Source of the DNA: Prosthecomicrobium sp. N25 | Lineage (GTDB): Bacteria > Pseudomonadota > Alphaproteobacteria > Rhizobiales > Ancalomicrobiaceae | Assembly: GCF_037203705.1 (NCBI RefSeq) | Contig: NZ_JBBCAT010000001.1 | Coordinates: forward strand, 655,418-719,417 | Direction of reading: 5' to 3' | Length of the DNA: 64,000 nt | Shown: piece after piece, positions 44,459-59,727 of the stretch | Position numbering within the stretch: position 1 is the first letter of the stretch | Layout of the letters: each line of letters begins with the position of its first letter | The notes under the pieces: model-generated | What the model was told of the DNA's origin: nothing | Databases searched by the model: none | The model's input: the letters and a program-made list of their open reading frames with translations, nothing else | Made by a program: the position numbers and the translations under genes

Positions 44459-44475
44459 GTATATGCGCGGTATGC
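44459..44475. promoter_or_regulatory. GntR-regulon operator candidate, copy 1 (gntR)
   Basis: GTATAT-N5-GTATGC, centred 25 bases before the gntR ATG. It is one of four 17-bp sites with the same half-site spacing in this island (see 46247, 50256 and 54293); it suggests autoregulation. Confidence 0.6.
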
Positions 44476-44491
44476 AGAAGGCCTGGTGCTC

Positions 44492-45139
44492 ATGAGCGTC
44501 GAATCAGCCGACCAGGGTCCGGCCAACCTCTCCGGATTCGCCTACCGGGCGATCTCGGACATGATCCGTCGCCACGAGCTGAAGTCCGGCGACCCGATCG
44601 TCGAGGCGAAGCTCGCCGACGCGCTCGCCATCTCGCGCACGCCGATCCGCGAGGCGCTGCAGCGGCTCGAGGGCGAGGGCCTGATCGTCAAGGCGGCCGG
44701 CCGGTCTTTCATGGTGCGCCGCGTCACCCTTACCGAGTACCTGCAGAGCCTGAAGGTGCGCGAGATCCTGGAGGCGGAGGCCGCCGCGGCGGCGATCGGC
44801 CGCATCCCGGAGGCCGCCTTCGAGGAGGTCCGGCGGGACATCGAGGCGAGCACCTCCGGCGCCTACTCCCGCGACGCCCACTGGAACACCGACGCCAAGC
44901 TGCACAACCTCTTCATCGACGCCTGCGGCAACGAGATCATGGCCTCCATGATCCGCGCGCTCAGGGCGACCACGCATCTTTTCGAAATCGCGCGGCTCCA
45001 GGACCGCCTGAAGCCCGACAACACCGAGCACCTGGCGATCATCGACGCGATCCGGTCGGGCGACCCGAAGGCGGCGCGCCGGGCGACCCAGCAGCACATC
45101 CGCAGCCTCTATCGATTTGCCCTGGAAGTGATCAGCTAG
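44492..45139 (+). CDS. GntR-family (FCD) transcriptional regulator
   Basis: A 215-residue regulator: winged helix (AYRAISDMIRRHELKSGDPI, LADALAISRTPIREALQRLEGEGL) and an all-helical FCD effector domain with the metal/ligand residues in the pattern LHNLFIDACGNEIM and EHLAIIDAIRSGD. FCD members usually respond to amino acids, organic acids or sugar acids. ATG 44492 is preferred because the longer frame from 44312 would begin with a Pro-Ala-Ala tract from the tandem repeat. It ends 8 bases inside the convergent hydrolase gene. It probably binds the four shared sites. Confidence 0.92.
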   Translation: MSVESADQGPANLSGFAYRAISDMIRRHELKSGDPIVEAKLADALAISRTPIREALQRLEGEGLIVKAAGRSFMVRRVTLTEYLQSLKVREILEAEAAAAAIGRIPEAAFEEVRRDIEASTSGAYSRDAHWNTDAKLHNLFIDACGNEIMASMIRALRATTHLFEIARLQDRLKPDNTEHLAIIDAIRSGDPKAARRATQQHIRSLYRFALEVIS

Positions 45140-46184
45140 CCCCGATCGTGAGCAGGCGCCGGGGCGTGTCGACCAGCATCCTGTCGATCTCCGCCTGCAC
45201 GAAGCCGCGGTCGCGCATGAGCGGCACCGCATTCGACAGGATGTGGCCGTAGCCGTGCCCGCCGAGCGAGCGCAGGCGCGAGCGGGTGCAGATGTCGTGC
45301 GAAATGGCGACGCGGTCGCCGAGCCCGGCCTCGAACAGCGCCCGGATGGCGCGGATCCGCATCCAGTCGTTCGGGATGTCCAGGATGCCCAGCCAGTAGT
45401 TCGAGTGCTCGATCCCGAAGAAGTCGTACTCGACCACGGCCCCGCGGCGCGCCAGCGCGATCACGTCGGCGACGTCGAGCAGCGTGCGGTCCATGTGGCC
45501 GACGACCACGCGGCCCGGGTCGGCGCCCTCCGCCTCCAGGATGTCGAGGATCTCGAACGGTGCCACACGGTCGCGCCCCGGATGGATCGTGATCGCCGCG
45601 CCGGTCGCCGCCTGGGCGCGCGCCGCGGCCCTGAGCGAACGCGCCTCGAACGGGGTGAGCGGCCACGAGCAGCCGATCTCGCCGATGATGCCGCAGCGGA
45701 CCGCCGTGCCCCAGGCGCCGCGCTCGACCTGCCCGACGACGATCTCGGTCAGCGCCTCGGTCGGCAGCGCCAGGGTCTCGGGGTCCAGGTAGGGCTCGGT
45801 GTAGAAGCCCGCGCCCATCACCACGTGGATGCCGCTCGCCTGCGCGATGGCGACGAGGCCCTGAGGGTCGGGGCGGATGCCGCCGGTCGTGACGTCCACG
45901 ATCGTGCCGCCGCCCGCCTCCCGGAAGAGCGTGGCCTCGCGGGCCGCGCGGCCGACGTCCCGGAGCCGGTGGTTGCCGTGGTGATGGCCGGGCCGGTAGC
46001 CGAAGTCGAAGACGGTCTCGAGCGTGATCTCCGCCTGGGGAAGGTCCAGGTCGCGGGTGGCCGGGGGCGTCAGGTCGCAGAGCAGGTGCTCGTGCAGGAG
46101 CGTCGGCCCGAGCGCCGCCGGGGCCACGGGCCCGAGCACGGTGACGACATGGCCGCGCGCTTCGAGATCGCCCGTCTCAGCCAT
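45132..46184 (-). CDS. Phosphotriesterase-family metal-dependent hydrolase (lactonase-like)
   Basis: A 350-residue TIM-barrel amidohydrolase of the phosphotriesterase/PLL family. Metal ligands appear as the HxH in LLHEHLLCDL, Glu in IIGEIGCSWPLTP (in place of the carboxylated Lys, as in many family members), His in TIHPGRD and VVVGHMDRT, and Asp in ISHDICTRSRL. Natural substrates of such enzymes are mostly lactones or sugar phosphates. I chose ATG 46184, with GGGGA about 7 bases upstream, over the 46283 start. It is divergent from the binding-protein gene and shares the operator at 46247-46263. Confidence 0.88.
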   Translation of the reverse strand: MAETGDLEARGHVVTVLGPVAPAALGPTLLHEHLLCDLTPPATRDLDLPQAEITLETVFDFGYRPGHHHGNHRLRDVGRAAREATLFREAGGGTIVDVTTGGIRPDPQGLVAIAQASGIHVVMGAGFYTEPYLDPETLALPTEALTEIVVGQVERGAWGTAVRCGIIGEIGCSWPLTPFEARSLRAAARAQAATGAAITIHPGRDRVAPFEILDILEAEGADPGRVVVGHMDRTLLDVADVIALARRGAVVEYDFFGIEHSNYWLGILDIPNDWMRIRAIRALFEAGLGDRVAISHDICTRSRLRSLGGHGYGHILSNAVPLMRDRGFVQAEIDRMLVDTPRRLLTIGAS

Positions 46185-46246
46185 GTCGCGTTCCCCACCC
46201 AGTCCGGTCCCGACCCGCCGCCCCCTTGTGGGATGGCCCTCGATTT

Positions 46247-46263
46247 GCATACTGGTTGTATGC
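46247..46263. promoter_or_regulatory. GntR-regulon operator candidate, copy 2 (hydrolase/binding-protein divergent promoter)
   Basis: GCATAC-N5-GTATGC, a perfect palindrome, the best of the four copies. It lies 63 bases from the hydrolase ATG and 50 bases from the binding-protein ATG, so it can control both directions. Confidence 0.7.
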
Positions 46264-46312
46264 GGACAGCGGCGGTGAGACAAGCCGCAAGGGTCCGGGA
46301 CAGGGGACAGCG

Positions 46313-47209
46313 ATGACCAGGACGAGCGACCGAGACAGCATCCTCCATCCCCCGGCGGGCGGCATGGGCCGGCCGGACCGGCGCGGCTTCCTGGCCGGTG
46401 CCGGCGCGCTCGTCGGCGGCGCCGCGCTCGGCGTCCGCCCGGCGCGCGCCCAGGCGAAGCTCGCGCCCCCGAACATCATCAAGGCCGGGACGCTGGTCAT
46501 GTCGATCAACCCGACCCTGCCGCCGCTGCAGTTCGTCGACGACAAGGGCGAGCTCCAGGGCATGCGCGTCGAACTCGGCAACGCCGTCGCCAAGAAGCTC
46601 GGCCTCACCCCCGAATACGTGCGGATCGAATTCGCCGCCATGGTGCCGGGCCTCGCCGCGAAGCGGTGGGACATGATCAACACCGGCATCTTCTGGACCG
46701 AGGAACGGTCCAAGCTGATGTACATGGTCCCCTACGAGCGGGCGGCGATCAGCTTCCTGGTCTCGCGCGGCAACCCGCTCGGCATCACCAAGTGGCAGGA
46801 TCTCGCCGGCAAGGCCGTCTCGGTCGAGCTCGGCGGCATCGAGGAGCGCCGCACCCGCGAGGTCGACGCCATGCTGAAGAAGGAAGGCCTCGCCGGGCTC
46901 GACATCCGGACCTTCAACAATTTCGCCGAGTCCTTCCAGGCCTTGCGCGCCCGCCAGGTCGACGCCGCCACCTCCATCGACGCGACCGCCATGTTCTGGC
47001 AGGGCAGGGGCGACTTCACCCGCGCGGTCGCGGGCCTCTTCCCGCAGACCGCGACCTTCGCCTTCGCCGACAAGACCCTCGCGCTCGCGGTGGTCGACGC
47101 CCTCAACGCCCTGCGCAAGGAGGGCTATTACGACAGCCTCTTCGACCGCTACGGCGTGCTGAAGATCGAAAGCGACACCTTCGCGATCCAGGGCCCCGGG
47201 CCGGGCTGA
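46313..47209 (+). CDS. Tat-exported amino-acid-type ABC substrate-binding protein
   Basis: A 298-residue periplasmic solute-binding protein of family 3 (polar amino acids, opines, ectoine). The N-terminus has a twin-arginine signal DRRGFLAGAGALVGGAALG with probable cleavage at ARAQA. The mature part shows PLQFVDDKGELQGMRVELGNAVAKKLG and the ligand-region WDMINTGIFWTEERSK. The start ATG 46313 follows AGGGGA. It is followed by a cognate-type permease; no ATPase of this system is in the window. The ligand cannot be read from sequence. Confidence 0.9.
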   Translation: MTRTSDRDSILHPPAGGMGRPDRRGFLAGAGALVGGAALGVRPARAQAKLAPPNIIKAGTLVMSINPTLPPLQFVDDKGELQGMRVELGNAVAKKLGLTPEYVRIEFAAMVPGLAAKRWDMINTGIFWTEERSKLMYMVPYERAAISFLVSRGNPLGITKWQDLAGKAVSVELGGIEERRTREVDAMLKKEGLAGLDIRTFNNFAESFQALRARQVDAATSIDATAMFWQGRGDFTRAVAGLFPQTATFAFADKTLALAVVDALNALRKEGYYDSLFDRYGVLKIESDTFAIQGPGPG

Positions 47210-47339
47210 CCGGCTCCTCCCGCCGGACCGTCTCACCGGGCGCGGCGGCAAGGCCGCGCCCGCTCACGCGCGGGGCCGCGCTCGCGCCCCGTGCCGCGCG
47301 CCCTGGCCCTTCCGGGCGGGGCCGGCCGCTGGAGTCCCG

Positions 47340-48053
47340 ATGAAGATCTGGAACTGGGAAGGCTTCTTCGGCTACTTCGTCAACACCTACCTGCTGACCG
47401 GCGCGCTGGTCACGCTGGCGCTGACGGCCGCCACCCTGGCGATCGGCTTCGTCCTCGGCATGGGGCTGGTGCTGTTCCGCCTGTCGGGCAACCCGATCCT
47501 CGCCGGCTACGCCCGCTTCCACGTCTGGCTCTTCCGCGGCACGCCACTGCTCGTCCAGCTGATCATCATCTACACCGGCCTGCCGCAGCTCGGCATCGCC
47601 CGCTTCACGGTGATCCAGTCGGCGCTGATCGGCCTCGCCCTCAATGAGGCCGCCTACCTCTCCGAGATCCTGCGCGGCGGCATCCTGTCGGTCCCGCAGG
47701 GCCAGCGCGACGCCGCCTACGCGCTCGGCCTCAACCGGTCCAAGACCTTCGTGTTCGTGATCCTGCCGCAGGCCCTGCGGGTCTCTATCCCCGCGCTCGG
47801 CAATTCGGTCAACGGGCTCCTGAAGACCACCTCGATCGCCTCCGTGATCTCCATGGAGGAACTGCTCCGCCGCGGGCAGATCCTCATGCAGCAGCGCTTC
47901 GAGGTTCTGGAGGTTTTCGTCTGCATCGCCATCCTGTACCTCGCCATGACGTCGATGTGGGAACTGGTCCAGCGGCGCATCGAGGCCCATTTCGGCCGCG
48001 CGCACGCCACCAAGGCGGTCGAGACCGAGGAGCTCGCCCGCGATGCCCGCTGA
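47340..48053 (+). CDS. Amino-acid-type ABC transporter permease
   Basis: A 237-residue HisM/GlnP-type permease with five membrane segments and the EAA loop RDAAYALGLNRSKTFVFVILPQALRVSIPALGN that contacts the ATPase. It is a single permease gene, so it would act as a homodimer. The start of the next gene lies inside its last 11 bases. The ATPase must be supplied from elsewhere. Confidence 0.92.
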   Translation: MKIWNWEGFFGYFVNTYLLTGALVTLALTAATLAIGFVLGMGLVLFRLSGNPILAGYARFHVWLFRGTPLLVQLIIIYTGLPQLGIARFTVIQSALIGLALNEAAYLSEILRGGILSVPQGQRDAAYALGLNRSKTFVFVILPQALRVSIPALGNSVNGLLKTTSIASVISMEELLRRGQILMQQRFEVLEVFVCIAILYLAMTSMWELVQRRIEAHFGRAHATKAVETEELARDAR

Positions 48054-48837
48054 ACCCGGGGCGGCGTCGCGCACCGGCTGCGCCATCCTCGGCCAGGGGC
48101 GCCTCGGGCGCCTGATCGCCGAGGCGCTGCTGGCCGACCCGGACGGCCCGGCGCTGGTCGGGACGCTCGGGCGGGGAGGGCGATCGGGGCCGGCCGCCGC
48201 CGCGAGCCTCGACGAGATCCTGGCGCGCCGTCCGGCCGTGGTGGTCGAATGCGCCTCCGCCGAAGCGCTGGCCGCGGCGGGTCCCTCGGTCCTCGCCGCC
48301 GGTGCCGTCCTTGTGCCCCTCTCGCTCGCCGCCTTCGCGGACGAGGACGCCGCGTCCCGCCTGACCGAGGCAGCCCGCCGAGGGCCCGGGCGCATCGAGA
48401 TCCCGTCGGGCGCCGCCGGCGCCCTCCCGCTCGTCGCCGCGGCGCTGGTCGCCGGGCTCCGGTCGGTCGCCTTCCGCCAGGCCTACCCCGTCGCGGGCTG
48501 GCGCGGCACGGCGGCGGAAGGACTCGTCGATCTCGACGCCATCCGGGAGGCGACCACCGTCTTCCGCGGCAGCGCCCGCGAGGCCGCGCGCCTCTTTCCG
48601 CGCAATCTCAACGCCGCCACCGGCGTGGCGCTCGCCGGCCTCGGCCTCGACCGCACCCATGTCGAACTGCTCGCCGACCCGGGCCTGCCCGGCGTCCGCT
48701 ACGACCTCGCCCTCGACGCGGAACCGGGACCGGTCCGGCTGACGATCGGGCCGCGCCCGGGCGGCAGCGGGCCGGACTACACCGCCTACACGGTCCTGGC
48801 CCACCTCCGGCGCCGCGTCGCCCGGATCGCGATCTGA
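48043..48837 (+). CDS. Aspartate-dehydrogenase-like NAD(P) oxidoreductase (NadX family)
   Basis: A 264-residue protein with a Rossmann N-terminus (CAILGQGRLGRLIAEALL) and the DUF108/AspDH C-terminal domain, including IPSGAAGALPLVAAAL and ARLFPRNLNAATGVALAGLGLDRTHVELLADPGLPGVRYDL. The family oxidises L-aspartate to iminoaspartate or reduces imines to amino acids. Overlap with the permease gene and position in an amino-acid island point to catabolic use. The exact substrate is not determinable. Confidence 0.82.
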   Translation: MPAEPGAASRTGCAILGQGRLGRLIAEALLADPDGPALVGTLGRGGRSGPAAAASLDEILARRPAVVVECASAEALAAAGPSVLAAGAVLVPLSLAAFADEDAASRLTEAARRGPGRIEIPSGAAGALPLVAAALVAGLRSVAFRQAYPVAGWRGTAAEGLVDLDAIREATTVFRGSAREAARLFPRNLNAATGVALAGLGLDRTHVELLADPGLPGVRYDLALDAEPGPVRLTIGPRPGGSGPDYTAYTVLAHLRRRVARIAI

Positions 48838-48856
48838 ACCCGGGAGGAGACGCGCC

Positions 48857-50194
48857 ATGACCGACAGGCCCGATCCGCAGGACGCCCTCGACCGCATCCT
48901 GCGTGCCGCGCCGGGCCGGCGGGACGCGGCCGTCGCCCTCCTGCGCGCGCTCGTCGCCGCCCAGCGCGACGGCGAGACCGCCGTGCAGGCCCGGTTGGCC
49001 GAAGCCTTCGCGGCGGCGGGGGCGGCTGTCTCTGAGCACCGCTACGATCCCGCCGCGGTGCCGCTCGTCGGCGAGTTCGCCTCGGGCCGCGCCGCGACGC
49101 CGGGGCACCGGACCTGCCTCGTCGGACGGCTCCCAGGGACCGGCACGGGCCGCAGCCTCATCCTCTTCGCCCATCCCGACAGCGAGCCGGTCGCCGACGC
49201 GGACCGCTGGAGCCGCGACCCCTTTGCGGGCGTCGTCGACGGCGGCCGCCTTTACGGCTGGGGCGTGGCCGACGACCTCGCCGGGGTCGCCGCCATGGCG
49301 AGCGCCGTCGATCTCCTGCGCGCGGCGGGCTTACGGCCGGCCGGGGACGTGATCCTGGCCTCCACCCCGAGCAAGCGGGATGCGCGCGGCGTCGCCGCCC
49401 TGCTCCAGGCCGGCCTCGCCGCCGACGCGGCGGTCTACCTGCATCCGGCCGAATCGGGCGCGGGGCTGCGGGAGGTGAAGGCCTTCGCGTCCGGCCAGGT
49501 CGAGTTCCTGGTCACCGTCGCCGGCCGGGCTCCGGACACCACCGAGCCGCACCAGACCGGCTTCGCCCACCGGGCGGTCGATCCTGTCGCCAAGGCCATG
49601 CTGGTCGTCGACGCGTTGCGCCGGCTGGACGCCGAGCGGGCCGGGCGCATCCGCCACCCGCTGCTCCAGGCCGCGGTCGGCCGCTCCACCAACCTGCTGG
49701 TCTCCCACCTGTCGGCCGGGTCGGCGGACGCGCTCTCCCGCTGTCCGACCTCCTGCACCGTCGGCGGTGCCGTCTCGTTCCCCCCGCCCGAGACCCTCGA
49801 CGACGTGCGCCGGGAGATCGAGGCGGCGATCCGGGCCGCCGCCGCGGGCGATCCCTGGCTCGCCGCGCATCCGCCCGAGGTCCAGTGGGTCGCGGGCGTG
49901 ACCGGGGCCGAGACCCGCAGCGGCGACCTGCTCTTCCGGGCGGTCGCGGCGGCCGTCTCCGCCGTTACGGGCGCGGAGCCCTTCGTCAACCCCATGCACA
50001 CGGCGAGCGACATCCGCAACCCGATCGTCCAGAAGGACATCCCGACCGTCGGCCTCGGCCCGCTCGGCGGCGACCTGACCCAGAACGGTCGCACCGACGA
50101 GTGGGTGGACCTGGAGGATCACTGTCGCATGGTCGTGGTGGCGGCCGGCATCGTCGCGCTCTGGTGCGGCGTGACCGAAGCGGCGGCGCCGTGA
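48857..50194 (+). CDS. M20-family metallopeptidase homologue lacking the catalytic Glu-Glu pair
   Basis: A 445-residue ArgE/DapE/carboxypeptidase-G2-like protein. The first metal site (LILFAHPDSEP) and the bridging Asp (LYGWGVADDLAG) are present, and VNPMHTASDIRNP provides the C-terminal metal region. Where the family has the catalytic and bridging Glu-Glu, this protein reads TPSKRDARG: Lys173-Arg174 about 34 residues after the bridging Asp. It may therefore be non-hydrolytic or use a different mechanism. GGGAGG precedes the ATG. Its neighbours suggest a role in freeing or binding an N-substituted amino acid. Confidence 0.87.
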   Translation: MTDRPDPQDALDRILRAAPGRRDAAVALLRALVAAQRDGETAVQARLAEAFAAAGAAVSEHRYDPAAVPLVGEFASGRAATPGHRTCLVGRLPGTGTGRSLILFAHPDSEPVADADRWSRDPFAGVVDGGRLYGWGVADDLAGVAAMASAVDLLRAAGLRPAGDVILASTPSKRDARGVAALLQAGLAADAAVYLHPAESGAGLREVKAFASGQVEFLVTVAGRAPDTTEPHQTGFAHRAVDPVAKAMLVVDALRRLDAERAGRIRHPLLQAAVGRSTNLLVSHLSAGSADALSRCPTSCTVGGAVSFPPPETLDDVRREIEAAIRAAAAGDPWLAAHPPEVQWVAGVTGAETRSGDLLFRAVAAAVSAVTGAEPFVNPMHTASDIRNPIVQKDIPTVGLGPLGGDLTQNGRTDEWVDLEDHCRMVVVAAGIVALWCGVTEAAAP

Positions 50195-50255
50195 GGACGG
50201 GGCCGGGGGCGAGCGATGCCAGGGCGGGGCTTGCCTTCCGGGGCGGGACGAATTC

Positions 50256-50272
50256 GTATACAGATTGCATGC
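50256..50272. promoter_or_regulatory. GntR-regulon operator candidate, copy 3 (dapA-like gene)
   Basis: GTATAC-N5-GCATGC in the 136-base gap before the DapA-family gene, 58 bases from its ATG. Same half-site layout as the other three copies. Confidence 0.6.
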
Positions 50273-50330
50273 CGAACCGGCGGGACACGCGAGTCCCTGT
50301 CGGCCGGGCGCGACACGGAGGCAGCCAGGA

Positions 50331-51227
50331 ATGAAGCCCTTCCGCGGAACCTACACCGTGATGGTCACCCCCTTCGACGCGGCGGGTGCGGTCGACATCG
50401 ACGCGCTCCGCCGCTTCGTCGACTGGCAGATCGCGGAGGGCATCCACGGCCTGATCCCGCTCGGCTCGACCGGGGAGTTCCTGTCGCTCTCCAACGACGA
50501 GATCGCGGCCGTGGTGGAGACGACCGTGAAGACGGCGGCCGGCCGCGTGCCGGTCATCGTGGGGACGGGCGCGGAGGACACCCGCGAGGTCGTCCGCAAG
50601 AGCCGGGAGGCCGAGGCGCTCGGGGCCGACGGGGTGATGATCATCCCGCCCTTCTACTGCACGCCGAGCGAGGACGAACTCTTCCACCATTACAAGACGG
50701 TCGCCGCCGCGATCGACATTCCCATCATGGTCTACAACAACCCGGCGGTGACCAACGTCGACCTGACCCCGCGCATCCTCGCCCGCATCAGCGAGATCGA
50801 CGGCTGCGACTACGTCAAGGAATCGACCCTCGAGGTGACCCGGGTGCGCGACATCATCCGGCTCTGCGGCGACCGGATGACGGTCTTCGGCGGCGTCCTC
50901 GGCTTCGAATCCTTCGTGGAGGGCGCCAGGGGCTGGGTCGCGGTCGCTTCGAACGTCGCGCCGAAGCCCATGGCGCGGCTCTTCGAACTCGTCGCCGACG
51001 AGGGCCGGATCGCCGAGGCGCATGCGCTCTACCTGCAATGGCTGCCGATTATCGAGGCGGTGTTCGGACCGCTCTTCGTCTCCGGCACGAAGTCGCTGCT
51101 GAACCACATGGGCTTCGGCGCCGGCCTGCCGCGGCCGCCCCGGCTGCCGCTGCCGGCCCCGCAGGACGCCGACATGGCGGGTCTGTGCGAGCGCTTCGGC
51201 CTGCGCTTCCCCGACGCCACGTCCTGA
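50331..51227 (+). CDS. DapA/NAL-family class I lyase or deaminase
   Basis: A 298-residue (beta/alpha)8 enzyme of the dihydrodipicolinate-synthase/N-acetylneuraminate-lyase family. The Schiff-base Lys is in CDYVKESTLEV, the Tyr in IPIMVYNNPAV and the carboxylate-binding loop in PLGSTGEFLSL. Family members include Delta1-pyrroline-4-hydroxy-2-carboxylate deaminase of hydroxyproline breakdown; the pairing with a downstream flavin amino-acid dehydrogenase favours that kind of reaction over lysine synthesis. ATG 50331 has GGAGG about 10 bases upstream. The next gene starts 10 bases after its stop. Confidence 0.88.
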   Translation: MKPFRGTYTVMVTPFDAAGAVDIDALRRFVDWQIAEGIHGLIPLGSTGEFLSLSNDEIAAVVETTVKTAAGRVPVIVGTGAEDTREVVRKSREAEALGADGVMIIPPFYCTPSEDELFHHYKTVAAAIDIPIMVYNNPAVTNVDLTPRILARISEIDGCDYVKESTLEVTRVRDIIRLCGDRMTVFGGVLGFESFVEGARGWVAVASNVAPKPMARLFELVADEGRIAEAHALYLQWLPIIEAVFGPLFVSGTKSLLNHMGFGAGLPRPPRLPLPAPQDADMAGLCERFGLRFPDATS

Positions 51228-51237
51228 GGCGCCCGCC

Positions 51238-54147
51238 TTGCGCCTCGGCGACGGCCGCACCGACTGCACCATCCTGGTCGACGACCGGCCGCTCGCGGCG
51301 GTCGCCGGCGAGACGGTCGCCGCCACTCTGATGGCCCATGGTCTGGCGGAGCAGTCGGTCGGGCCCGGTGGCGAGCCGCGCGGGCTCTTCTGCGGCATGG
51401 GCGTCTGCCACGACTGCCTCGTCGCCATCGACGGCCGGGCCGGCCAGCGGTCCTGCCTCGTGACCGTGACGCCCGGCATGGTCGTCCGGCGCAAGACCTC
51501 CCCCCGGACCGACCTCGCCGGCCTCGCCGACCTCGCGCCCCTGCCGGCGGGACCGATTCCCCTGGAAACCGTGGGCCTCGCCGTGGTCGGCGCCGGGCCG
51601 GGCGGTCTCGCCGCCGCCATCGCGGCCGCGGAGGCGGGCGTCGCCGTCGTCGTCCTCGACGAGCGGCCGAAGCCGGGCGGCCAGTACTACAAGCAGCCCG
51701 CCGCCCGGCCCGCCCTCGCCGACGATGCCCAGTTCGCCGCCGGCCGGAGGCTGATCGAGCGCGCGCAGGCGGCCGGCGTGGTGTTCCGGTTGGGCACGCT
51801 CTGCTGGGGCGCGGTGCGCGGCGAGGATGGCGTCGAACTCGAGCTCTACGCCGAGGGTCGGTTCGTCCGGCTCCTCGCCGGCCGGCTCGTCGTCGCGACG
51901 GGCGCCTACGAGCGTTCGCAGGCCGTGCCCGGCTGGACGCTGCCGGGCGTCATGACCACGGGCGCCTGCCAGACGCTCGTGCGCAGCGGCGCCGTGGCGC
52001 CGGGCCGGCGCGTGCTCTTCGCCGGCAACGGGCCGCTCCACCTGCAGACCGCCACCGAGGTGATCGTGGCCGGCGGCACGGTGGCGGCGGTTGCGGAACT
52101 CGCCGCGCCCCTCGCCGCCCTCCGCGCCGGCCTCGCCATGGCGGCCGCCTCGCCCGGCCTCGCCGCGCGCGGCCTCGCCGGGATTGCCCGGCTGCGCGCC
52201 GCAGGCGTGCCCCTCCTCTGGCGCCACGGCTTGCGCCGGATCGAGGGGGAGGGCCGCGCCGAGCGGGCCGTCCTGGCCCCGCTCGGGCCGGACGGACGCT
52301 TCCTCGAAGGCCGGGACGTGACGATCGAGGCCGACGCGGTCTGCCTTGGCGTCGGCTTCGCGCCCTCCTCCGAACTGCCCCGCCTTCTCGGCTGCGCCCA
52401 CGAGGTGCCGCCCGGCGGCACCCACGCGGAGGTTCGCCGGGGCGACGACGGCGGCACATCCCTGCCGGACGTCTGGGTGGTCGGCGAGGCGGGCGGCTTC
52501 GGCGGCGCCCAGATCGCCGAGGCGCAGGGACGCCTGGCGGGCCTCGCCGCGGCCCGCTCGCTGGGCCGGACCGCCCCGGCGGATCCGCGCGCGGTCGGGG
52601 CCCTCGCCCGAGCACGGCGGTTCCAGCATGCGCTCTGGCGCGCCTTCGCGGTGCCGCCCGCGCCCGTACCGGACGACGCCGTGGTGGCCTGCCGTTGCGA
52701 GGGCGCGACCTTCGGCCGGCTCCGGGCGGTCGCCCGGGACGAGGCCGTCCCCGACGTGGCGAGCCTCAAGCGCCTGACGCGCGCCGGCATGGGCCGTTGC
52801 CAGGGCCGCTACTGCGCCGCCCACCTCGCCGCCATCGTGCCGGACCGCCCCGCCGGAGAGGCGGACCTGACCGCGCCGCAGATGCCGCTGAAGCCGGTCC
52901 CTGTCGCCGCCCTCGCGGTGGAGAAGCCCGAATGGGGCGGACACCGGCGCGCCCTCCTGCCGCCCGACCGCGCCGGCGACGCCGAGCCTCTCCCCATATC
53001 CGAGGCCGACACGGTCGTCATCGGGGCGGGCGTCGCCGGCCTCTCGACGGCCTACTATCTCGCCAGGGCGGGCCGGGAGGTGGTCGTGCTCGACGCCGGC
53101 CGCCCCAACGCGATGGCGTCCGGCGGCAACGCCGGCAGCCTGCACGTCCAGCTCCTCTCCTTCGACTTCGGCGCCAAGGCGGAGGCCGGCGGCTCCCCGG
53201 CCCTGAGGACGCTGCCCCTGCAGCGCGACTCCGTCCGGCTCTGGCGGGACCTCGAGCGGGAGACCGGCCGCGACTTCGAGATCGCCGTCACGGGCGGGCT
53301 GATGGTCGCCGAGACCGAGGCGGACCTGCGCTTCCTGGAGGCCAAGACGGCGCTGGAACGCTCGGTCGGGATTGACAGCACGGTCATCGGTCCGGCCGAC
53401 CTCGCCTGCCTGGAGCCCGGCATCGCCGACCGCTTCCTGGGCGCCGCCTGGTGCCCCGAGGAGGGCAAGATCAACCCGCTGGTCGCCACCCCCGGCATCC
53501 TGGCCGGGGCGCGCGCGGCCGGCGCCCGGGTCTTCGACAGAACGATCGTGCGGGCCCTGGAGCGGCACGGCCCGGGCTTTCTCGTGTCGACCAACCGAGG
53601 GACGATCCGGGCCGGCCGGGTCGTCAACGCCGCGGGCGCCTTCGCGTCGCGGATCGGCGCCATGCTGGGCCTCGACGTGCCCGTCTTCGGCGCGCCCCTG
53701 CAGATGATCGTCACCGAACCGGCGGCCCCGACCGTGAAGGCGCTGGTCGCCCATGCCGACCGGCACCTGACGCTGAAGCAGGCCTCCAACGGCAGCTTCA
53801 TCATCGGCGGCGGCTGGACGGCCGGCCTCGACCCCGTCCACCACCGGCCGAGACCGCTGCGCGAAAGCCTCGAGGGCAATCTCTGGATCGCCCAGCACGT
53901 CGTGCCGTCCCTGCGCAAGCTGCACGTCCTGCGCAGCTGGGCGGCGATGAACATCAACATCGACGGCGCGCCCATCCTCGGCGAGCATCCCCTGGCGCCG
54001 GGCTTCTACCTGGCCGTCACCTCCAACGGCTACACCCTCGGGCCCATGGTCGGCGCCATCACGGCCGACCTCGTCGCGCGCGGCCGCACCGACCGCGACA
54101 TCGCGCCCTTCGCGATTGAGCGATTCGCGGGCGCCTCTCCGACCTGA
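51238..54147 (+). CDS. Three-domain fused flavin amino-acid dehydrogenase (HcnA-HcnB-HcnC / OoxA-OoxB-like)
   Basis: A single 969-residue chain. Residues 1-95 are an HcnA-like [2Fe-2S] domain (Cys52, 57, 60, 73 in FCGMGVCHDC ... RSC). Residues 110-560 are an HcnB/OoxA-like FAD/NAD oxidoreductase (VVGAGPGGLAAA at 117-128) with a C-terminal BFD-type [2Fe-2S] motif (Cys485, Cys487, Cys521, Cys526). Residues about 590-960 are a DAO-type FAD oxidase (VVIGAGVAGLSTAYYLARAG) resembling HcnC/OoxB/D-hydroxyproline dehydrogenase beta. In hydrogen-cyanide synthase, opine oxidase and D-hydroxyproline dehydrogenase these are separate subunits. The start is TTG 51238 with GAGG 9 bases upstream. The electron acceptor is probably the respiratory chain. 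Confidence 0.88.
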   Translation: MRLGDGRTDCTILVDDRPLAAVAGETVAATLMAHGLAEQSVGPGGEPRGLFCGMGVCHDCLVAIDGRAGQRSCLVTVTPGMVVRRKTSPRTDLAGLADLAPLPAGPIPLETVGLAVVGAGPGGLAAAIAAAEAGVAVVVLDERPKPGGQYYKQPAARPALADDAQFAAGRRLIERAQAAGVVFRLGTLCWGAVRGEDGVELELYAEGRFVRLLAGRLVVATGAYERSQAVPGWTLPGVMTTGACQTLVRSGAVAPGRRVLFAGNGPLHLQTATEVIVAGGTVAAVAELAAPLAALRAGLAMAAASPGLAARGLAGIARLRAAGVPLLWRHGLRRIEGEGRAERAVLAPLGPDGRFLEGRDVTIEADAVCLGVGFAPSSELPRLLGCAHEVPPGGTHAEVRRGDDGGTSLPDVWVVGEAGGFGGAQIAEAQGRLAGLAAARSLGRTAPADPRAVGALARARRFQHALWRAFAVPPAPVPDDAVVACRCEGATFGRLRAVARDEAVPDVASLKRLTRAGMGRCQGRYCAAHLAAIVPDRPAGEADLTAPQMPLKPVPVAALAVEKPEWGGHRRALLPPDRAGDAEPLPISEADTVVIGAGVAGLSTAYYLARAGREVVVLDAGRPNAMASGGNAGSLHVQLLSFDFGAKAEAGGSPALRTLPLQRDSVRLWRDLERETGRDFEIAVTGGLMVAETEADLRFLEAKTALERSVGIDSTVIGPADLACLEPGIADRFLGAAWCPEEGKINPLVATPGILAGARAAGARVFDRTIVRALERHGPGFLVSTNRGTIRAGRVVNAAGAFASRIGAMLGLDVPVFGAPLQMIVTEPAAPTVKALVAHADRHLTLKQASNGSFIIGGGWTAGLDPVHHRPRPLRESLEGNLWIAQHVVPSLRKLHVLRSWAAMNINIDGAPILGEHPLAPGFYLAVTSNGYTLGPMVGAITADLVARGRTDRDIAPFAIERFAGASPT

Positions 54148-54292
54148 CGATTGCCTGACCAACTGTGCCCGCGCGATGGGCAGGTCCCGACGAGGGGTCG
54201 CGTATCCGCTCGGACCCTACGTCAGGTCCTGCATCCAGGGCCTCGCGACTGCCCCGAAATTGGAGTTGCCAAGAGGCGTGATCGGGTCGATT

Positions 54293-54309
54293 GTATAACA
54301 ATGGTATTC
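54293..54309. promoter_or_regulatory. GntR-regulon operator candidate, copy 4 (sugar-type ABC operon)
   Basis: GTATAA-N5-GTATTC, just before the ribosome binding site and 25 bases before the ATG of the binding-protein gene. It is the most degenerate copy, but keeps the 5-base spacer and lies in the 187-base gap between the fused dehydrogenase and the ABC operon. Confidence 0.5.
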
Positions 54310-54334
54310 CAACGGTGTGCCAAGGAGGCCCCGG

Positions 54335-55660
54335 ATGCGACTGTCCCGCTACGCTCCCTCTCGTCGTGAACTTCTCAGACAGGCAGGCGCGGCAGCCGCG
54401 CTGTCGCTCGCCGGCAGCTTCCCGGAGGCCCGGGCGCAGAGCCCCGTGACGCTCCGGGTCATGACGCTCCAGCGGGCCCCGCTCCAGTTGAAGGCCTACG
54501 AAGCCATGGTGCAGGGCTTCGAGGCGGCCAACCCCAACATCAAGGTCTCGATCCTGCCGGTCTCGCAGACGGACCTCTGGCCGAAGCTCGCGGCAGCCTA
54601 CGCAGGCGGCGACGTGCCCGACCTCGTGCTGCAGATCACGTCCGAGAACGCGGTCTCGCTCTACGGCCAGGGGCTGATCCATCCGGTCGACGACGTCGTC
54701 AAGGCGATCGGCGAGAGCGATTTCGAGCCGGCCGCCCTCAACCTCTTCAAGGACAAGGGCTCCTATTTCGCGGTGCCCGCCTCCAACAACTGCGTGTCGC
54801 TGCTCTGGTACCGCACGGACCTCCTGCAGGAGGCCGGGCTCGAGCCGCCGAAGACCTGGGACCAGATGGTCGCTGTCGCCAAGAAGCTGACCAAAGGCGA
54901 CCAGTACGGCGCGTCGCTGCCCTACGGCAAGACGGCGATGACCAACAGCATCACCTGGACGCTGATCTACCAGGCCGGGGGCCGTGTCATCGCCCCCGAC
55001 AATTCGGTCGTCTTCAACTCGGACGCCACGGTGGCGATGCTCGAGTTCATGAAGGAGATGCACGAATACGTGCCGCCGGGCGCGAACCGCTACGACTTCT
55101 TCGACGTGCTCAACGCCTACGTGACCGGCACCTCGGCGACCTGCATGTACACCGGCCGGACGATCGTCAACGTCAACACCGAGAACCCCAAGCTCGCCGA
55201 CAAGATCTCGGTCGTGCCCTTCCCGCTGCGCAGTCTCGACCGGCCGTGGTGGTCGGGCGCCTTCGAGTCCATCATTATCCCGAAGGCGGCCAAGAACGTC
55301 GCTGCCGCCCGGCTCTTCGCCGCCTGGAACTTCAAGAAGCAGACCTACATCGACTTCATCAACGCCACGCCGGGCCACCAGATTCCGATGCTGAAGTCCG
55401 TGCTCGGCTCCCCCGAATATCTCAGCCATCCGCTCCTGGTGAAGTACCGCAAGGAACTGGACACCACCATCGACACGCTCTCGAAAGCGCGCGCGACCTG
55501 CAAGCCGACCGCCGACTATCCCCTCATCACCCGCGCCGGCGAGATCCAGAACAGCGGCATCTTCGCCGAGACGATCCAGAAGGTCGTCATCGAAGGAGAG
55601 AACCCGAAGACGGCCGCCGCCTGGGGCCAGGACCGCCTCGCTCGCCTGATGAAGTCGTGA
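54335..55660 (+). CDS. Family 1 extracellular solute-binding protein of a sugar-type ABC transporter
   Basis: A 441-residue periplasmic protein with a signal of twin-arginine character (SRRELLRQAGAAAALSLAGSF) cleaved near EARAQ. The mature protein starts VTLRVMTLQRAPLQLKAYEAMVQGFEAANPNIKV, typical of UgpB/MalE-like proteins. AAGGAGG lies 6 bases before ATG 54335. It is the first gene of a complete binding protein - two permeases - ATPase operon that ends with an amidohydrolase. Family 1 members bind sugars, glycerophosphodiesters and occasionally other polar solutes. Confidence 0.92.
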   Translation: MRLSRYAPSRRELLRQAGAAAALSLAGSFPEARAQSPVTLRVMTLQRAPLQLKAYEAMVQGFEAANPNIKVSILPVSQTDLWPKLAAAYAGGDVPDLVLQITSENAVSLYGQGLIHPVDDVVKAIGESDFEPAALNLFKDKGSYFAVPASNNCVSLLWYRTDLLQEAGLEPPKTWDQMVAVAKKLTKGDQYGASLPYGKTAMTNSITWTLIYQAGGRVIAPDNSVVFNSDATVAMLEFMKEMHEYVPPGANRYDFFDVLNAYVTGTSATCMYTGRTIVNVNTENPKLADKISVVPFPLRSLDRPWWSGAFESIIIPKAAKNVAAARLFAAWNFKKQTYIDFINATPGHQIPMLKSVLGSPEYLSHPLLVKYRKELDTTIDTLSKARATCKPTADYPLITRAGEIQNSGIFAETIQKVVIEGENPKTAAAWGQDRLARLMKS

Positions 55661-55697: not shown

Positions 55698-56582
55698 ATG
55701 AACCAGCGCGACCTGGGTCTCGGCTACCTGCTCCTGTCGCCGACCGTCCTCCTGCTCTGCGGCCTGCTCGGCTGGCCGCTGATCCAGGCGGTCCTGCTCA
55801 GCTTCTACGACATGCACCCGCTGACCCGGAAATTCGTCTGGGTTGGCCTCGGCAACTACGAGGACCTCTTCCAGGACGACATGTTCTGGCGGGCTCTCGG
55901 CAACAACTTCATCTGGCTCGCCGGTTCGCTGCTCCTGCAGATCGGCGGCGGGGTCGCGATCGCGCTGCTGCTCAATCGGTCCTTCCCCGGCCGGGGCCTC
56001 GCGCGCTCCCTGATCCTCTTCCCCTACCTGATGCCGGTCCTCGTCGCCGCGCTGGTCTGGCAGTGGATGCTGCACGACCTGAACGGCATCGTGAACTACG
56101 CCCTGACGTCGCTCGGCTTCCGCCGCGTCGACTGGCTCGGCGCCATGCCCAACGCCATGGTGACTGTCATCGTGGTCGGCAGCTGGCGCGTCTTCCCCTT
56201 CGTGGTCATCGCCGTGCTGGCCCGCCTCCAGTCCATCCCGCAGCAGCTCTACGAGGCGGCCGAGATCGACGGCGCCTCGCGCGTCGCCCGCTTCTGGGAC
56301 GTCACCGTACCCCAGCTCGCCAACGTGCTCTCGGTCGTGGTCCTGCTCCGGGCGATCTGGGACTTCCGCGAGTTCGACCTGATCTTCCTGATGACCGGTG
56401 GCGGCCCGGTGATCGGCACCACGACGCTGCCGCTCCTCGTCTACAAGGAGGCTTTCGAGCTCTTCAAGATGGGCAAGGCGCTCGCCATCGCGGTGGTGAT
56501 GCTCGGCTGCATGCTGGTGCTGATCGCCGCCTATCTCTTCACCCTGCGCAAGGCCTCCACCTCCGAGGAGATGCAGTCGTGA
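55698..56582 (+). CDS. Sugar-type ABC transporter permease (MalF/UgpA class)
   Basis: A 294-residue permease with six membrane segments and the EAA loop YEAAEIDGASRVARFWDVTVPQL. It pairs with the MalG-class permease, whose GTG start overlaps its stop by 4 bases. Confidence 0.93.
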   Translation: MNQRDLGLGYLLLSPTVLLLCGLLGWPLIQAVLLSFYDMHPLTRKFVWVGLGNYEDLFQDDMFWRALGNNFIWLAGSLLLQIGGGVAIALLLNRSFPGRGLARSLILFPYLMPVLVAALVWQWMLHDLNGIVNYALTSLGFRRVDWLGAMPNAMVTVIVVGSWRVFPFVVIAVLARLQSIPQQLYEAAEIDGASRVARFWDVTVPQLANVLSVVVLLRAIWDFREFDLIFLMTGGGPVIGTTTLPLLVYKEAFELFKMGKALAIAVVMLGCMLVLIAAYLFTLRKASTSEEMQS

Positions 56583-57418
56583 CCCGGGCGATCGACTGGG
56601 CCGGCCGGGCCCTCCTCACCGCGGCGACCTGGATCCTGGTCGCCGCCGTGACGTTCCCGCTCTTCTGGATGCTCGGCACCGCCTTCAAGAAGCCGGCGGA
56701 GCTCTTCGTCAAGCCGCCGACCTTCGTGCCGCGCGAGCCGACGCTCGAGAACTTCGCCAATGTGCTGACCCAGACGAAGTTCCTGACCTATGCCTCCAAC
56801 AGCCTGACGGTCGCGGTCGTCACCACCGTCTTCGTGCTCGTGGTCTCCACCCTCGGCGCCCACGCGCTCGTCTCGTTCCGCCTGCGCGGCCGCACGGTCG
56901 TCGCCCGAGCCCTGCTCCTCGCCTACATGCTGCCGACCACCGCGGTACTGATCCCGATCTACCTGATGATCGCCGGCTTCGGCCTGACCAACACGCTGAC
57001 CGGCCTGATCGTCGCCTATTCGAGTCTGGCGCTTCCCTTCGCGCTCTGGATGATGCGCGCCTTCTTCGTCGGCATCCCGCCCGAGATCGAGGCCGCCGCC
57101 ACCATCGACGGCGCGAGCCGCCTGGAGGCCTTCTTCGACGTGGTCCTGCCCCAGGCCCTCCCCGGCATCATCACGACCGGCGTCTTCACCTTCCTGCTCT
57201 GCTGGAACGAGTATCTCTACAGCCTGGTGATGATCAACGACGACAGCCGGCGGACCCTGCCGACCGGCATCATGGGCACCCTCGTCACCGGACACACCAT
57301 CGAGTGGGGCATGGTCATGGCCGCCGCCTCGATGATGAGCGTGCCGCTCCTGCTCATCTTTCTCCTGCTGCAGCGCTACGTGGTCCAGGGCTTCGGCGCC
57401 GGCGCCGTGAAAGGGTAG
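56579..57418 (+). CDS. Sugar-type ABC transporter permease (MalG/UgpE class)
   Basis: A 279-residue permease with six membrane segments and the EAA loop IEAAATIDGASRLEAFFDVVLPQALPGI. The start is GTG 56579, in a GTGA overlap with the previous gene; the frame is open further upstream, but that part is not family-like. The protein starts with the common DWAGRALLTAATWILVAAV first helix. Confidence 0.92.
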   Translation: MTRAIDWAGRALLTAATWILVAAVTFPLFWMLGTAFKKPAELFVKPPTFVPREPTLENFANVLTQTKFLTYASNSLTVAVVTTVFVLVVSTLGAHALVSFRLRGRTVVARALLLAYMLPTTAVLIPIYLMIAGFGLTNTLTGLIVAYSSLALPFALWMMRAFFVGIPPEIEAAATIDGASRLEAFFDVVLPQALPGIITTGVFTFLLCWNEYLYSLVMINDDSRRTLPTGIMGTLVTGHTIEWGMVMAAASMMSVPLLLIFLLLQRYVVQGFGAGAVKG

Positions 57419-57421
57419 ATC

Positions 57422-58510
57422 TTGGCCGACATCACGCTCCAGGCAGTCGAGAAGCGGTTCCCCGACGGGACCGTCGCCGTGCATGCCCTCGACCTCGCCA
57501 TCGCGGACGGCGAGTTCCTGACCCTGCTCGGCCCCTCCGGCTGCGGCAAGACGACGACGTTGCGCATGATCGCCGGGCTGGAGACCCTGACGGCCGGCCA
57601 GATCCTCTTCGGCACCACCCGCATCGACCCGCTCGCCCCGGGCCGGCGCAACATCGCGATGGTGTTCCAGAACTACGCGCTCTACCCGCACCTGACCGTG
57701 CGCGGGAACCTCGAATATCCCTTGCGCAAGCGCGGCGTGCCGAAGGCCGAGCGCGCGCCGATGATCGAGCGCACCGCCCGCATGCTCCACATCGGCGAAC
57801 TGCTCGACCGCCGCCCGCGCCAGCTCTCCGGCGGCCAGCAGCAGCGCGTCGCCCTCGGCCGCGCCATGATCCGCGACCCCGCCGTCTTCCTCTTCGACGA
57901 GCCCCTCTCCAACCTCGACGCGCAACTCCGCTCCGCCATGCGGGCCGAGCTGATCCGGCTGCACGCCCAGCTCGGCAAGACCATGGTGTATGTCACCCAT
58001 GACCAGCTCGAGGCGATGACCATGTCGACCCGCATCGCGGTCATGTTCAAGGGCCGGCTGCAGCAGATCGGCACGCCCGCGGAGATCTACGGCCGCCCCG
58101 CCAATCGCTTCGTCGCCGGATTCGTCGGGACCCCGTCCATGAACTTCGTGGACGGCGAGGTCGCGGCCGGCCCTGCCGGGCCGGTGTTCCGGAGTGCCAC
58201 CCTCGCCGACCTGCCCCTGACGGGTCTCCCGGCCGGGTCCGTCGCGGCGGGCGAGCCGGTCGCCGCCGGCTTCCGATCCGAGCACGTCGCCCTCGGGGCC
58301 GGCGCCGACGCCGCGACCGTCTCGGTCGTCGAGGCGCTCGGCCACGAGACGCTCGTCCTCCTCGCCGCGGGCGCGACCGAGATCGCGGTCCGGGCCAGCG
58401 CCGATGTCGGCCTGAAGGCCGGCGACCGTGTGCCCTTCGCGATCGCGCCCGAGCGCGTCCATCTCTTCCGCGTGTCCGACGGGACGCGCATTCCGAGGAG
58501 CGACCCATGA
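57422..58510 (+). CDS. UgpC/MalK-class ABC transporter ATP-binding protein
   Basis: A 362-residue ATPase: Walker A GPSGCGKTTTLRMIAGLE, Q-loop MVFQNYALYPHLTV, signature LSGGQQQRVALGRAM, Walker B VFLFDEPLSNLDAQLR, H-loop VYVTHDQ, followed by a C-terminal OB-fold regulatory domain (about residues 240-360). The start is TTG 57422 with AAGGG 6 bases upstream, 3 bases after the permease stop. Its stop overlaps the amidohydrolase start. It could also energise the ATPase-less amino-acid-type permease, but cross-family pairing would be unusual. Confidence 0.93.
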   Translation: MADITLQAVEKRFPDGTVAVHALDLAIADGEFLTLLGPSGCGKTTTLRMIAGLETLTAGQILFGTTRIDPLAPGRRNIAMVFQNYALYPHLTVRGNLEYPLRKRGVPKAERAPMIERTARMLHIGELLDRRPRQLSGGQQQRVALGRAMIRDPAVFLFDEPLSNLDAQLRSAMRAELIRLHAQLGKTMVYVTHDQLEAMTMSTRIAVMFKGRLQQIGTPAEIYGRPANRFVAGFVGTPSMNFVDGEVAAGPAGPVFRSATLADLPLTGLPAGSVAAGEPVAAGFRSEHVALGAGADAATVSVVEALGHETLVLLAAGATEIAVRASADVGLKAGDRVPFAIAPERVHLFRVSDGTRIPRSDP

Positions 58511-59727
58511 CCGACCTCCTGCTCAAGAACCTCGCCCTGCTCGACGTCGAGGCCGGCGTGCTCCGGTCGGGGCGCCAGATCCTGGTCCGCGACGGCAAGA
58601 TCGCGGCCGTCGAGGAGGGCCGCGTCGACGCGCCCGGCGCCGAGGAGGTGGACTGCGGCGGGCGGACCGTCATGCCCGGGCTGATCGACTGCCATGTCCA
58701 CATCGCTCCCGGCGCGATCCTCAACCAGCCGAAGCTCCACGCCTCGCTGACGGCGGCCCGCGGCGTGATGTGGATGCGCCAGATGATCCAGCGTGGCTTC
58801 ACCACGGCCCGCGATGCGGGTGGGGCGGACGCCGGGTTCCGCCAGGCGGTCGAGCGCGGCATCAGCCTCGGCCCGCGCCTCTTCGTCGCCGGCCGCGCGA
58901 TCAGCCAGACCGGAGGCCACGGCGACAAGCGCTGGCCCTCGGAGGAGGCCTGCTCCTGCCACGCTTCCACGGCTTCCCTGGCGCGCGTCGCCGACGGCGT
59001 CGACGAGTGCCGGCGCGCCGTCCGCGACGAACTGCGGATGGGCGCCAACCACATCAAGGTGATGGCCGGCGGCGGCGTCAGCTCGCCCTCCGACTCCATC
59101 TTCCACCTGCAGTATTCCGACGAGGAGCTCCTGGCCCTGGTCGACGAGGCCCGCCGCCAGCACACCTACTGCATGGCGCATGTCTATTCCGCCGAGGGCA
59201 TCCGCCGCGCCTCCGAACTCGGCATCCGCACCATCGAGCACGGCAATTTCCTGGACGAGGAGACCGCCAAGGTCATGGCCGCGCGCGGCACCTTCCTGGT
59301 CCCGACCCTGGTCACCTACCGGGTCGACGGCGCGAACGGCAAGGCGATCGGCTTCACCGACGAGGTGATCGCCAAGAACAGCCAGGTGCTGGAGGCAGGC
59401 ACCCGCTCCCTCGAGATCGCGTCCGCCGCCGGCGTCAAGATCGCCTACGGGACGGACCTCGCCTATTCCTCCAAGGTGCACCAGCCCGAGGAATTCCTGG
59501 TCCGCGCGGAGGTGCAGAAGCCCGCCGACATCATTCGCAGCGCCACCGTGATCGGCGCCGAGGTGGTCGGCATGGTCGGCAAGATCGGCGTGGTCGCGCC
59601 CGGTGCCTACGCGGACCTGCTGGTCGTCTCGGGCAATCCCCTGGAGGACCTCGGCGTGCTCCAGAACGAAGGCGCCCAGATGGCCGCCATCCTGAAGGAA
59701 GGCCAGTTCGTCAAGCGGGCCCTCTGA
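58507..59727 (+). CDS. Metal-dependent amidohydrolase (Xaa-Pro-dipeptidase/imidazolonepropionase-like)
   Basis: A 406-residue TIM-barrel amidohydrolase. Metal ligands are visible as HVH in GLIDCHVHIAPG, a Lys in HIKVMAGGGVSSP, His in CMAHVYS and IEHGNFLDE, and Asp in AYGTDLAYSS, a binuclear pattern shared with prolidase-like Sgx-type dipeptidases. The ATG overlaps the ATPase stop by 4 bases, so it belongs to the transporter operon and likely hydrolyses the imported compound, perhaps an N-acyl amino acid or Xaa-Pro type dipeptide. The substrate is an inference. Confidence 0.87.
   Translation: MTDLLLKNLALLDVEAGVLRSGRQILVRDGKIAAVEEGRVDAPGAEEVDCGGRTVMPGLIDCHVHIAPGAILNQPKLHASLTAARGVMWMRQMIQRGFTTARDAGGADAGFRQAVERGISLGPRLFVAGRAISQTGGHGDKRWPSEEACSCHASTASLARVADGVDECRRAVRDELRMGANHIKVMAGGGVSSPSDSIFHLQYSDEELLALVDEARRQHTYCMAHVYSAEGIRRASELGIRTIEHGNFLDEETAKVMAARGTFLVPTLVTYRVDGANGKAIGFTDEVIAKNSQVLEAGTRSLEIASAAGVKIAYGTDLAYSSKVHQPEEFLVRAEVQKPADIIRSATVIGAEVVGMVGKIGVVAPGAYADLLVVSGNPLEDLGVLQNEGAQMAAILKEGQFVKRAL

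Follow-up and report, generated by a model that had tools for sequence, protein, structure and literature searches.

Candidate paired-box operators at an 11-bp pitch for a GntR/FCD regulator in a catabolic island of Prosthecomicrobium sp. N25

A catabolic island in a stretch of 64,000 nucleotides from Prosthecomicrobium sp. N25 (called the window here) contains four similar 17-bp sites, at 44459, 46247, 50256, and 54293, together with the gene of a GntR-family regulator with an FCD domain. The locus raises the question of whether these sites are the operators of the adjacent regulator, how the regulator would occupy them, and which genes it would control. The present analysis leads us to regard the sites, with considerable confidence, as putative operators of this regulator, onto which a repressor would be loaded cooperatively at twin boxes and from which a ligand would release it. 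As far as can be read from the sequence, the operators are of a known type and the conserved substrate-breakdown regulon appears real; the regulon itself, i.e., the regulator with its surrounding genes, is a very probable prediction.

The initial annotation assigned to the four sites the layout GYATAN-N5-GYATKC, and all four 17-mers were found at their positions with zero mismatches (Table 1). With at most one mismatch, the window contains the four exact places and one further place at 37541, i.e., six rows compared to 1.05 expected, a number that is reached in none of 100 shuffles of the window. The place with one mismatch (37541-37557, minus strand) lies about 7 kb off the island. In the genome (5.95 Mb, 17 contigs), there are seven distinct exact matches, four of them inside the 9.9-kb stretch of the island. 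With at most one mismatch, the genome gives 53 forward and 53 reverse rows, compared to 28 and 34 for a control with the reversed pattern; the window and genome counts involve some circularity, since the four sites themselves supplied the pattern, and it is the relatives that provide the independent test. None of the three other exact places is clearly an operator, one being located inside an NMT1-type gene (L005), one just past phaR (L006), and one close to where a Mur-ligase-like frame begins (L007); the latter two are conceivable candidates.

The placement of each site in a short promoter region, as originally proposed, is borne out, all four being outside genes as called here, with start codons that were chosen by us and open frames that extend further upstream. 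In the comparison of third-position GC content (GC3) with the other exact genome places, long open frames were found to cross the four island sites as well. No RNA families were detected over 43-60 kb of the window. The site at 46247 had been described as a perfect palindrome, which is correct for its 12 box bases but not for the 5-base spacer TGGTT, which is asymmetric. Relative to the symmetric consensus GYATAC-N5-GTATRC, the number of mismatches is 1 at 44459, 0 at 46247, 1 at 50256, and 2 at 54293, and 46247 is the only place in the genome with zero mismatches.

For the test on relatives, a position matrix was built from the four window sites only and then run on loci of other genomes (numbered with an L below). 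The first set comprises 17 loci (319,837 bp) whose regulators share at least 50% identity with that of the island; scanning 397 genomes of the order added another 14, giving 31 loci in total. At a score of at least 18, the 17 loci have 16 matches, compared to 0.16 expected from a Markov model and 0 in the reversed loci, and at a score of at least 14 they have 32 matches, compared to 2.18 and 6, respectively. At the latter threshold, a site is present in 28 of the 31 loci. These sites amount to 70 matches versus 8 in the reversed control, which are not 70 independent events, as three-box arrays are counted as two matches; none of them falls inside the genes detected with the island proteins, even though such genes make up 51% of the bases.

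The gaps in which the sites are found are bordered by modules of the island. A site is present in the gap between the phosphotriesterase-family hydrolase (PTE) and solute-binding protein (SBP) genes in L059, L060, L072, L077, L141, L142, L145, and L150-L153, in the gap between the DapA-like and flavin adenine dinucleotide (FAD) oxidase genes in L059, L060, L072, L075, L077, L141, and L142, and in the gap between the GntR and M20 deacylase genes in L061, L078-L082, L143, L146-L149, and L154. All 23 loci that hold an island-type DapA-like gene (at least 56% identity) have a site, located in the PTE/SBP, DapA/FAD-oxidase, GntR/M20, GntR/DapA, or GntR/permease gap. This placement indicates that the sites in most loci track the genes through rearrangement, so that the conservation ahead of orthologous clusters, which the initial annotation had put forward as a check, holds for most of them. 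Autoregulation, as proposed, is compatible with the arrangement in the window and with most divergent layouts; an exception is L147-L149, where the GntR/M20 gap is not divergent and the site stands before the M20 gene only, not before the regulator gene.

The regulator carries a GntR winged helix (PF00392, 57.7 bits) and an FCD domain (PF07729, 73.3 bits), both above the cut-off, a domain pair that places it in the FadR (FCD) subfamily. Its predicted model has a pLDDT of 89.8 and a matching fold, the top Foldseek match by E-value being Atu1419 at 26-27% identity, while others, such as 4p9f and 3ihu, rank higher by TM-score. Asp134, His138, His180, and His202 (D134, H138, H180, and H202) are invariant in 16 of 16 aligned homologues, and these conserved residues include the three histidine ligands of the metal-dependent FCD type (TM0439/HypR/Atu1419). 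D134, four residues before the first histidine, we take to be the fourth metal ligand. Three metal-binding histidines are named for TM0439 and Streptomyces coelicolor HypR (PMC6608401; statements from the literature refer here to excerpts of the papers cited).

In a tree of 96 rows, the regulator belongs to a starred set of 37 rows, 36 of which have the boxes at their locus. In a wider set, with 70 rows and a support of 85/95 but no star, 62 rows show the boxes, compared to 3 of the 26 rows outside it, two of which are marked solely through sharing a locus with a clade member; part of this contrast is due to locus length, as most of the outside rows come from 3.6-kb loci. The search for a second clade member in the genome gave none, there being one match at an E-value of 1e-45 or better, and the next FCD paralogue is 32% identical to the regulator. 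The possibility that another regulator of this genome reads the sites was also considered, and the 19-kb locus of the next paralogue, the one paralogue locus inspected, has no site of at least 13. Two arrangements with more than one regulator were observed among the relatives. Prosthecomicrobium hirschii and a congener (L059 and L060) have two regulators (75% and 62% identical to that of the island) in neighboring clusters whose operators are similar, an arrangement that lends itself to studying cross-talk or insulation. L150-L153 and L195 each hold a pair of divergent regulators, one about 33-36% and the other 54-57% identical to that of the island, which adjoin each other near box arrays.

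How the regulator would occupy the sites is indicated by the anatomy of the boxes. The alignment of 25 chosen sites from relatives gives the consensus TTGYATAC-N5-GTATRCAA, in which the outer TT/AA is independent of the matrix because it lies outside it. Each box of these sites has a GT-AT-AC core, with a C tolerated at the outer T, and each of the former half-sites contains both GT and AC. The GT/AC boxes have the spacing of the FadR subfamily, in which GT and AC are mostly 2-3 nt apart, the distance being 2 nt in HypR and UxuR (PMC4494728).

The distance between the two boxes is also preserved. In the 17 loci, near copies of an exact GTATAC box are counted 16 times at 11 bp versus 0.26 times on average at other spacings, and 0 times at 11 bp in the reversed control. 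The corresponding values are 3 versus 0 for the 14 new loci, and 6 versus 0.06 where the regulators are more distant (26 loci). Counted by locus, 10 of the 14 new, 16 of the 26 distant, and 0 of 22 control FCD loci contain an exact GTATAC that is accompanied, at 11 bp, by a box with no more than two mismatches; the last value makes a weaker contrast, as the control loci, with 77,763 bp, fall short of the test loci in length. The profile of the mean best-neighbor match against offset has its sole peak at 11 bp, which reaches 4.52 of 6 in the orthologue set (27 anchors) and 3.89 of 6 in the distant set (18 anchors), both sets being at about 2 elsewhere, and five control anchors give no peak at this distance. 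At the fourth site, three boxes (54293, 54304, and 54315) follow each other at an 11-bp step, the third one matching GTATAC at 4 of 6 bases, and three boxes in register are also present in L150-L153. The sites, which were initially taken as single 17-bp palindromes, thus resemble instead FCD boxes repeated in tandem every 11 bp. Considering the GT and AC within each box, their published spacing, and the Atu1419 crystal structure discussed below, the most economical interpretation takes each box as the binding site of a dimer, a predicted mode of binding that we consider fairly probable.

In the mechanism proposed here, the regulator would repress its own gene as well as the catabolic and transport genes around it. 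On the DNA, it would recognize as a unit the FCD box (T)TGTATAC(A)A, with a GT-AT-AC core that offers room for one dimer, and the operator would consist of two, sometimes three, boxes at exactly 11 bp center to center, which is about one helical turn. Neighboring dimers would then be located side by side on one face of the DNA and would load cooperatively across the promoter, until the binding of a carboxylate of the pathway at the FCD metal site leads to their release. The inducer should accordingly be sought among small molecules, probably carboxylated, that fit this metal site.

A number of observations weigh against such a mechanism or narrow its reach. Three of the 31 orthologue loci (L070, L074, and L144) lack a site of at least 14, the best scores in the first two being 12.9 and 13.1, and L144 being just 6.4 kb long. 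In four loci of other gene content (L069, L071, L073, and L076), the nearest site is found 1.5-1.6 kb before the regulator, ahead of other genes. The loci are, moreover, not independent of each other, as they include the near-identical relatives L059/L060, L072/L075/L077, L141/L142, and L150-L153. The control FCD loci (L037-L058) have an excess of GTATAC-like boxes at 7 bp (6 counts), which is perhaps the pitch of another regulator. A third box as a general rule was considered and is not supported by the 25-site alignment. Finally, with at most two mismatches to the symmetric consensus, the genome has 87 places compared to 96 in the reversed control, and the site at 54293 is therefore by itself not distinguished from the background.

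The same sites can be read with one dimer per 17-bp dyad, the boxes being ordinary half-sites that bind one monomer each, which we judge possible but less probable. A distance of 11 bp is also a usual one between the half-sites of helix-turn-helix dimers. The dyad consensus of the 25 chosen sites keeps the flanking T/A on the outer side of the boxes only, the inner flank of each box being degenerate, which also fits a single dyad, and a complete 10-bp palindrome is present in just 1 of the 27 orthologue-set anchors. Against such an arrangement stand, however, the presence in every box of both GT and AC, at the short separation that is mostly published for the subfamily (PMC4494728), and the binding of the Atu1419 dimer to a 10-bp GTATAC palindrome (PMC7797058). 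In addition, the TK-GTATAC-MA palindrome is complete in 12 of the 18 distant-set anchor boxes, whose partners at 11 bp are weaker, so that these boxes are hard to read as halves, and the three boxes in register at 54293 and in L150-L153 argue in the same direction. The A/T-rich boxes could, on the other hand, be promoter -10 elements and not operators, considering that TATAC, TATAT, and TATAA resemble -10 hexamers and are located in promoter gaps. This is very improbable, as consensus scans, the only type of scan used, gave no sigma-70-like promoter over any of the four regions, and a dyad whose repeat is fixed at 11 bp and tied to a single clade of regulators is not a feature of promoters; an overlap of box and -10 element would still be consistent with repression. 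A chance clustering of short palindromes, for which one could invoke the derivation of the pattern from the sites themselves and the 53 forward rows of the genome against the 28 of the control, has a negligible probability in view of the 16 matches versus 0.16 expected in relatives outside the matrix and of the complete absence of the 70 matches from detected genes.

The control of the sugar-type ATP-binding cassette (ABC) operon behind the site at 54293 is probable. The initial annotation proposed that one FCD regulator controls all four units and that the genes from 44.5 to 59.7 kb serve one pathway. The former proposal stands for the regulator, hydrolase/transport, and DapA-like/oxidase units and is weaker for the sugar-type ABC operon, while the latter is retained for 44.5-54.1 kb only, the sugar-type ABC/amidohydrolase operon being outside the conserved cluster. 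Against control by this regulator, P. hirschii has other ABC genes at this place and no match to the binding protein or the amidohydrolase of the operon, and no site of at least 13 was found before any of 7 homologous operons, including one with a 70% identical binding protein. The operon may thus be independent of the regulator, the site being that of another FCD regulator or a relict, an alternative that we take seriously while holding it to be the less probable one. It would agree with the background-level score of 54293 against the symmetric consensus, with the occurrence of related ABC/amidohydrolase genes of P. hirschii near a 38% identical regulator, and with the internal spacers CAATG/CAACG of the site, which resemble those near 38% regulators (L066; L163), although the CAACG spacer is also found in L154, beside a 50% regulator. 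It agrees less well with the lack of a second clade member in the genome and of a site at the one paralogue locus inspected, or with the position of the operon directly after the oxidase gene and the setting of its homologues, which in 5 of 7 loci have DapA-like as well as FAD-oxidase genes beside them. Control by the regulator is also favored by the two boxes and the weaker third that stand in register shortly ahead of the SBP start codon, the third, at 54315, ending 14 bp before it.

The features of the island are collected in Table 1. The closest relatives found to have the cluster are P. hirschii and one congener, whose regulators are 75-77% identical to that of the island. No second copy of the cluster was found in the genome, where the fused oxidase has no other full-length match and 12 partial ones. 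A second transport pair, with a 50% identical binding protein and a 58% identical permease, is located at C1:30595 (L186) and has no site of at least 13 nearby. The amino-acid transporter unit at 46313-48053 consists of a binding protein and one permease without an adjoining ATPase gene; an ATPase is present in the corresponding run of relatives such as L061, L078-L080, and L082. Between a FixG/CcoG-like gene (42840-44261, minus strand) and operator 1, the region 44344-44417 contains about 8 copies of the 9-mer GCCCCCGCG.

Table 1. Putative operators and genes of the catabolic island, in window coordinates.
Feature	Position	Strand	Basis and remarks
Operator 1	44459..44475	+	GTATATGCGCGGTATGC; boxes GTATAT + GTATGC, 11 bp center to center; 16 bp before regulator ATG (44492)
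Operator 2	46247..46263	.	GCATACTGGTTGTATGC; boxes GCATAC + GTATGC; within the 128-bp divergent PTE/SBP gap; relatives have a site at the equivalent gap
Operator 3	50256..50272	+	GTATACAGATTGCATGC; boxes GTATAC + GCATGC; 58 bp before DapA-like ATG (50331); DapA/FAD-oxidase gap has a site in several relatives
Operator 4 (probable)	54293..54320	+	GTATAACAATGGTATTC; boxes GTATAA 54293, GTATTC 54304, weaker GTGTGC 54315; 25 bp (from the 17-mer) before SBP ATG (54335)
GntR/FCD regulator, 215 aa	44492..45139	+	Domain search; alignment; predicted model
Phosphotriesterase-family hydrolase (PTE, PF02126)	45132..46184	-	Domain search
Family 3 (amino-acid type) solute-binding protein	46313..47209	+	Domain search
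Amino-acid type ABC permease	47340..48053	+	Domain search
Aspartate-dehydrogenase-like protein	48043..48837	+	Domain search
M20 ArgE/DapE-type deacylase	48857..50194	+	Domain search
DapA/DHDPS-family lyase or synthase	50331..51227	+	Domain search
Fused FAD oxidoreductase, 969 aa: 2Fe-2S, FAD, BFD-like (just under cut-off), and DAO domains	51238..54147	+	Domain search
Sugar-type (SBP_bac_1/8) solute-binding protein, first in ABC operon	54335..55660	+	Domain search
Two ABC permeases and ATPase of the sugar-type operon	55698..58510	+	Open frames; homologues in same order at other loci
Amidohydrolase, nearest NCBIfam Xaa-Pro dipeptidase model but under cut-off	58507..59727	+	Domain search

As to the pathway, seven of the 25 listed plasmid matches of the regulator were examined, and four of these loci (L195, L196, L198, and L200) have an annotated dihydropyrimidinase of the hydantoinase type in a cluster of the regulator clade. 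In these four loci, from Aureimonas, Azospirillum, Paraburkholderia, and Pantoea, DapA-like, FAD-oxidase, and amino-acid ABC genes are found alongside, and box pairs are present; of the other examined plasmid loci, two are without annotation and one is without such a cluster. L195 and L196 also contain DUF3830, and L198 and L200 a small zinc-ribbon protein. The gene content suggests a pathway that may first hydrolyze a cyclic or N-acylated amino-acid derivative and then oxidize it, with cleavage or deamination of the product. More tentatively, and with rather less than even confidence, we propose that the operators of an FCD clade in Alpha-, Beta-, and Gammaproteobacteria are phased, with two to three dimer boxes at exactly one helical turn from each other on which dimers would line up cooperatively along the same face of the DNA, and that the controlled genes form an undescribed pathway that opens such a derivative by means of a phosphotriesterase-like or hydantoinase-like hydrolase, an M20 deacylase, an FAD oxidase, and a DapA-family lyase. 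No paper on this cluster or on the box pair was found in the literature searched, and the DUF3830/hydantoinase matches listed (titles and abstracts) include none on the cluster. For a catabolic island that had no annotation, a regulon is in this way predicted and its switch named, and the range of candidate substrates becomes narrower. Of these results, the box pitch most deserves an experiment: the phased operator, if correct, would give a function to the unexplained "additional boxes" of GntR-family sites, and the island provides a clean test case for them, with extra boxes that are often strong, placed at 11 bp, and kept in distant relatives.

Turning to known systems, the repeats of NanR from E. 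coli are more closely spaced than the boxes of the island. FCD dimers of NanR load side by side and cooperatively, three of them on (GGTATA)3 (PMC8012715). A repeat geometry is also seen in the island operators, but the NanR sites differ in being direct repeats, and NanR cooperativity is reported to need a 32-residue N-terminal extension (PMC8012715), whereas the GntR domain match of the island regulator already starts at residue 16.

The island also resembles the hydroxyproline system of Sinorhizobium meliloti, in which the FCD regulator HypR is found beside DapA-family, FAD-oxidase, and amino-acid ABC genes (PMC5343134; L202). In the S. meliloti hyp region (pSymB, 45 kb), which was identified here by its domains, the matrix gives four matches of at least 14, compared to 0 in the reversed control and 0.35 from the Markov model, which suggests that this operator style may extend beyond the regulator clade. 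Box pairs and a triple at the 11-bp pitch are found between genes at 8976, 11623, and 13411-13438 of this locus. An orthology to HypR was considered and rejected, the identity being 41% over just 76 N-terminal residues and the island regulator being only 15th among the 31 matches of the genome to the hyp-region GntR, with 14 better ones. A hydroxyproline regulon was likewise discarded, as the 10 island proteins scanned (the two permeases and the ATPase were left out) include no proline racemase or aldehyde dehydrogenase; the one Pro_racemase match of the genome is on contig C3, off the island contig.

Atu1419 (VanR of Agrobacterium fabrum) has a zinc-binding FCD fold and a GTATAC core that serves one dimer, as proposed for the boxes here; its dimer was crystallized on the 10-mer ATGTATACAT, with Arg45 contacting a guanine (PMC7797058). 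In contrast to the adjacent boxes of the island, at 11 bp, the Atu1419 palindromes are reported to be 190 bp apart and could be looped by a tetramer (PMC7797058). The closest general parallel is with the FadR-subfamily regulons surveyed by Suvorova et al. in 2015, which share with the island an FCD regulator, the TKGT/ACMA core with the 2-nt center of HypR and UxuR, single sites that serve divergent promoters, and an extra box beside the site (PMC4494728). In that survey, extra boxes 7-12 nt from the centers of many GntR-family sites are described as weaker, and their role is left open (PMC4494728), whereas the second box in the present operators, located at 11 bp, is often nearly equal to the first, and a third box is sometimes added.

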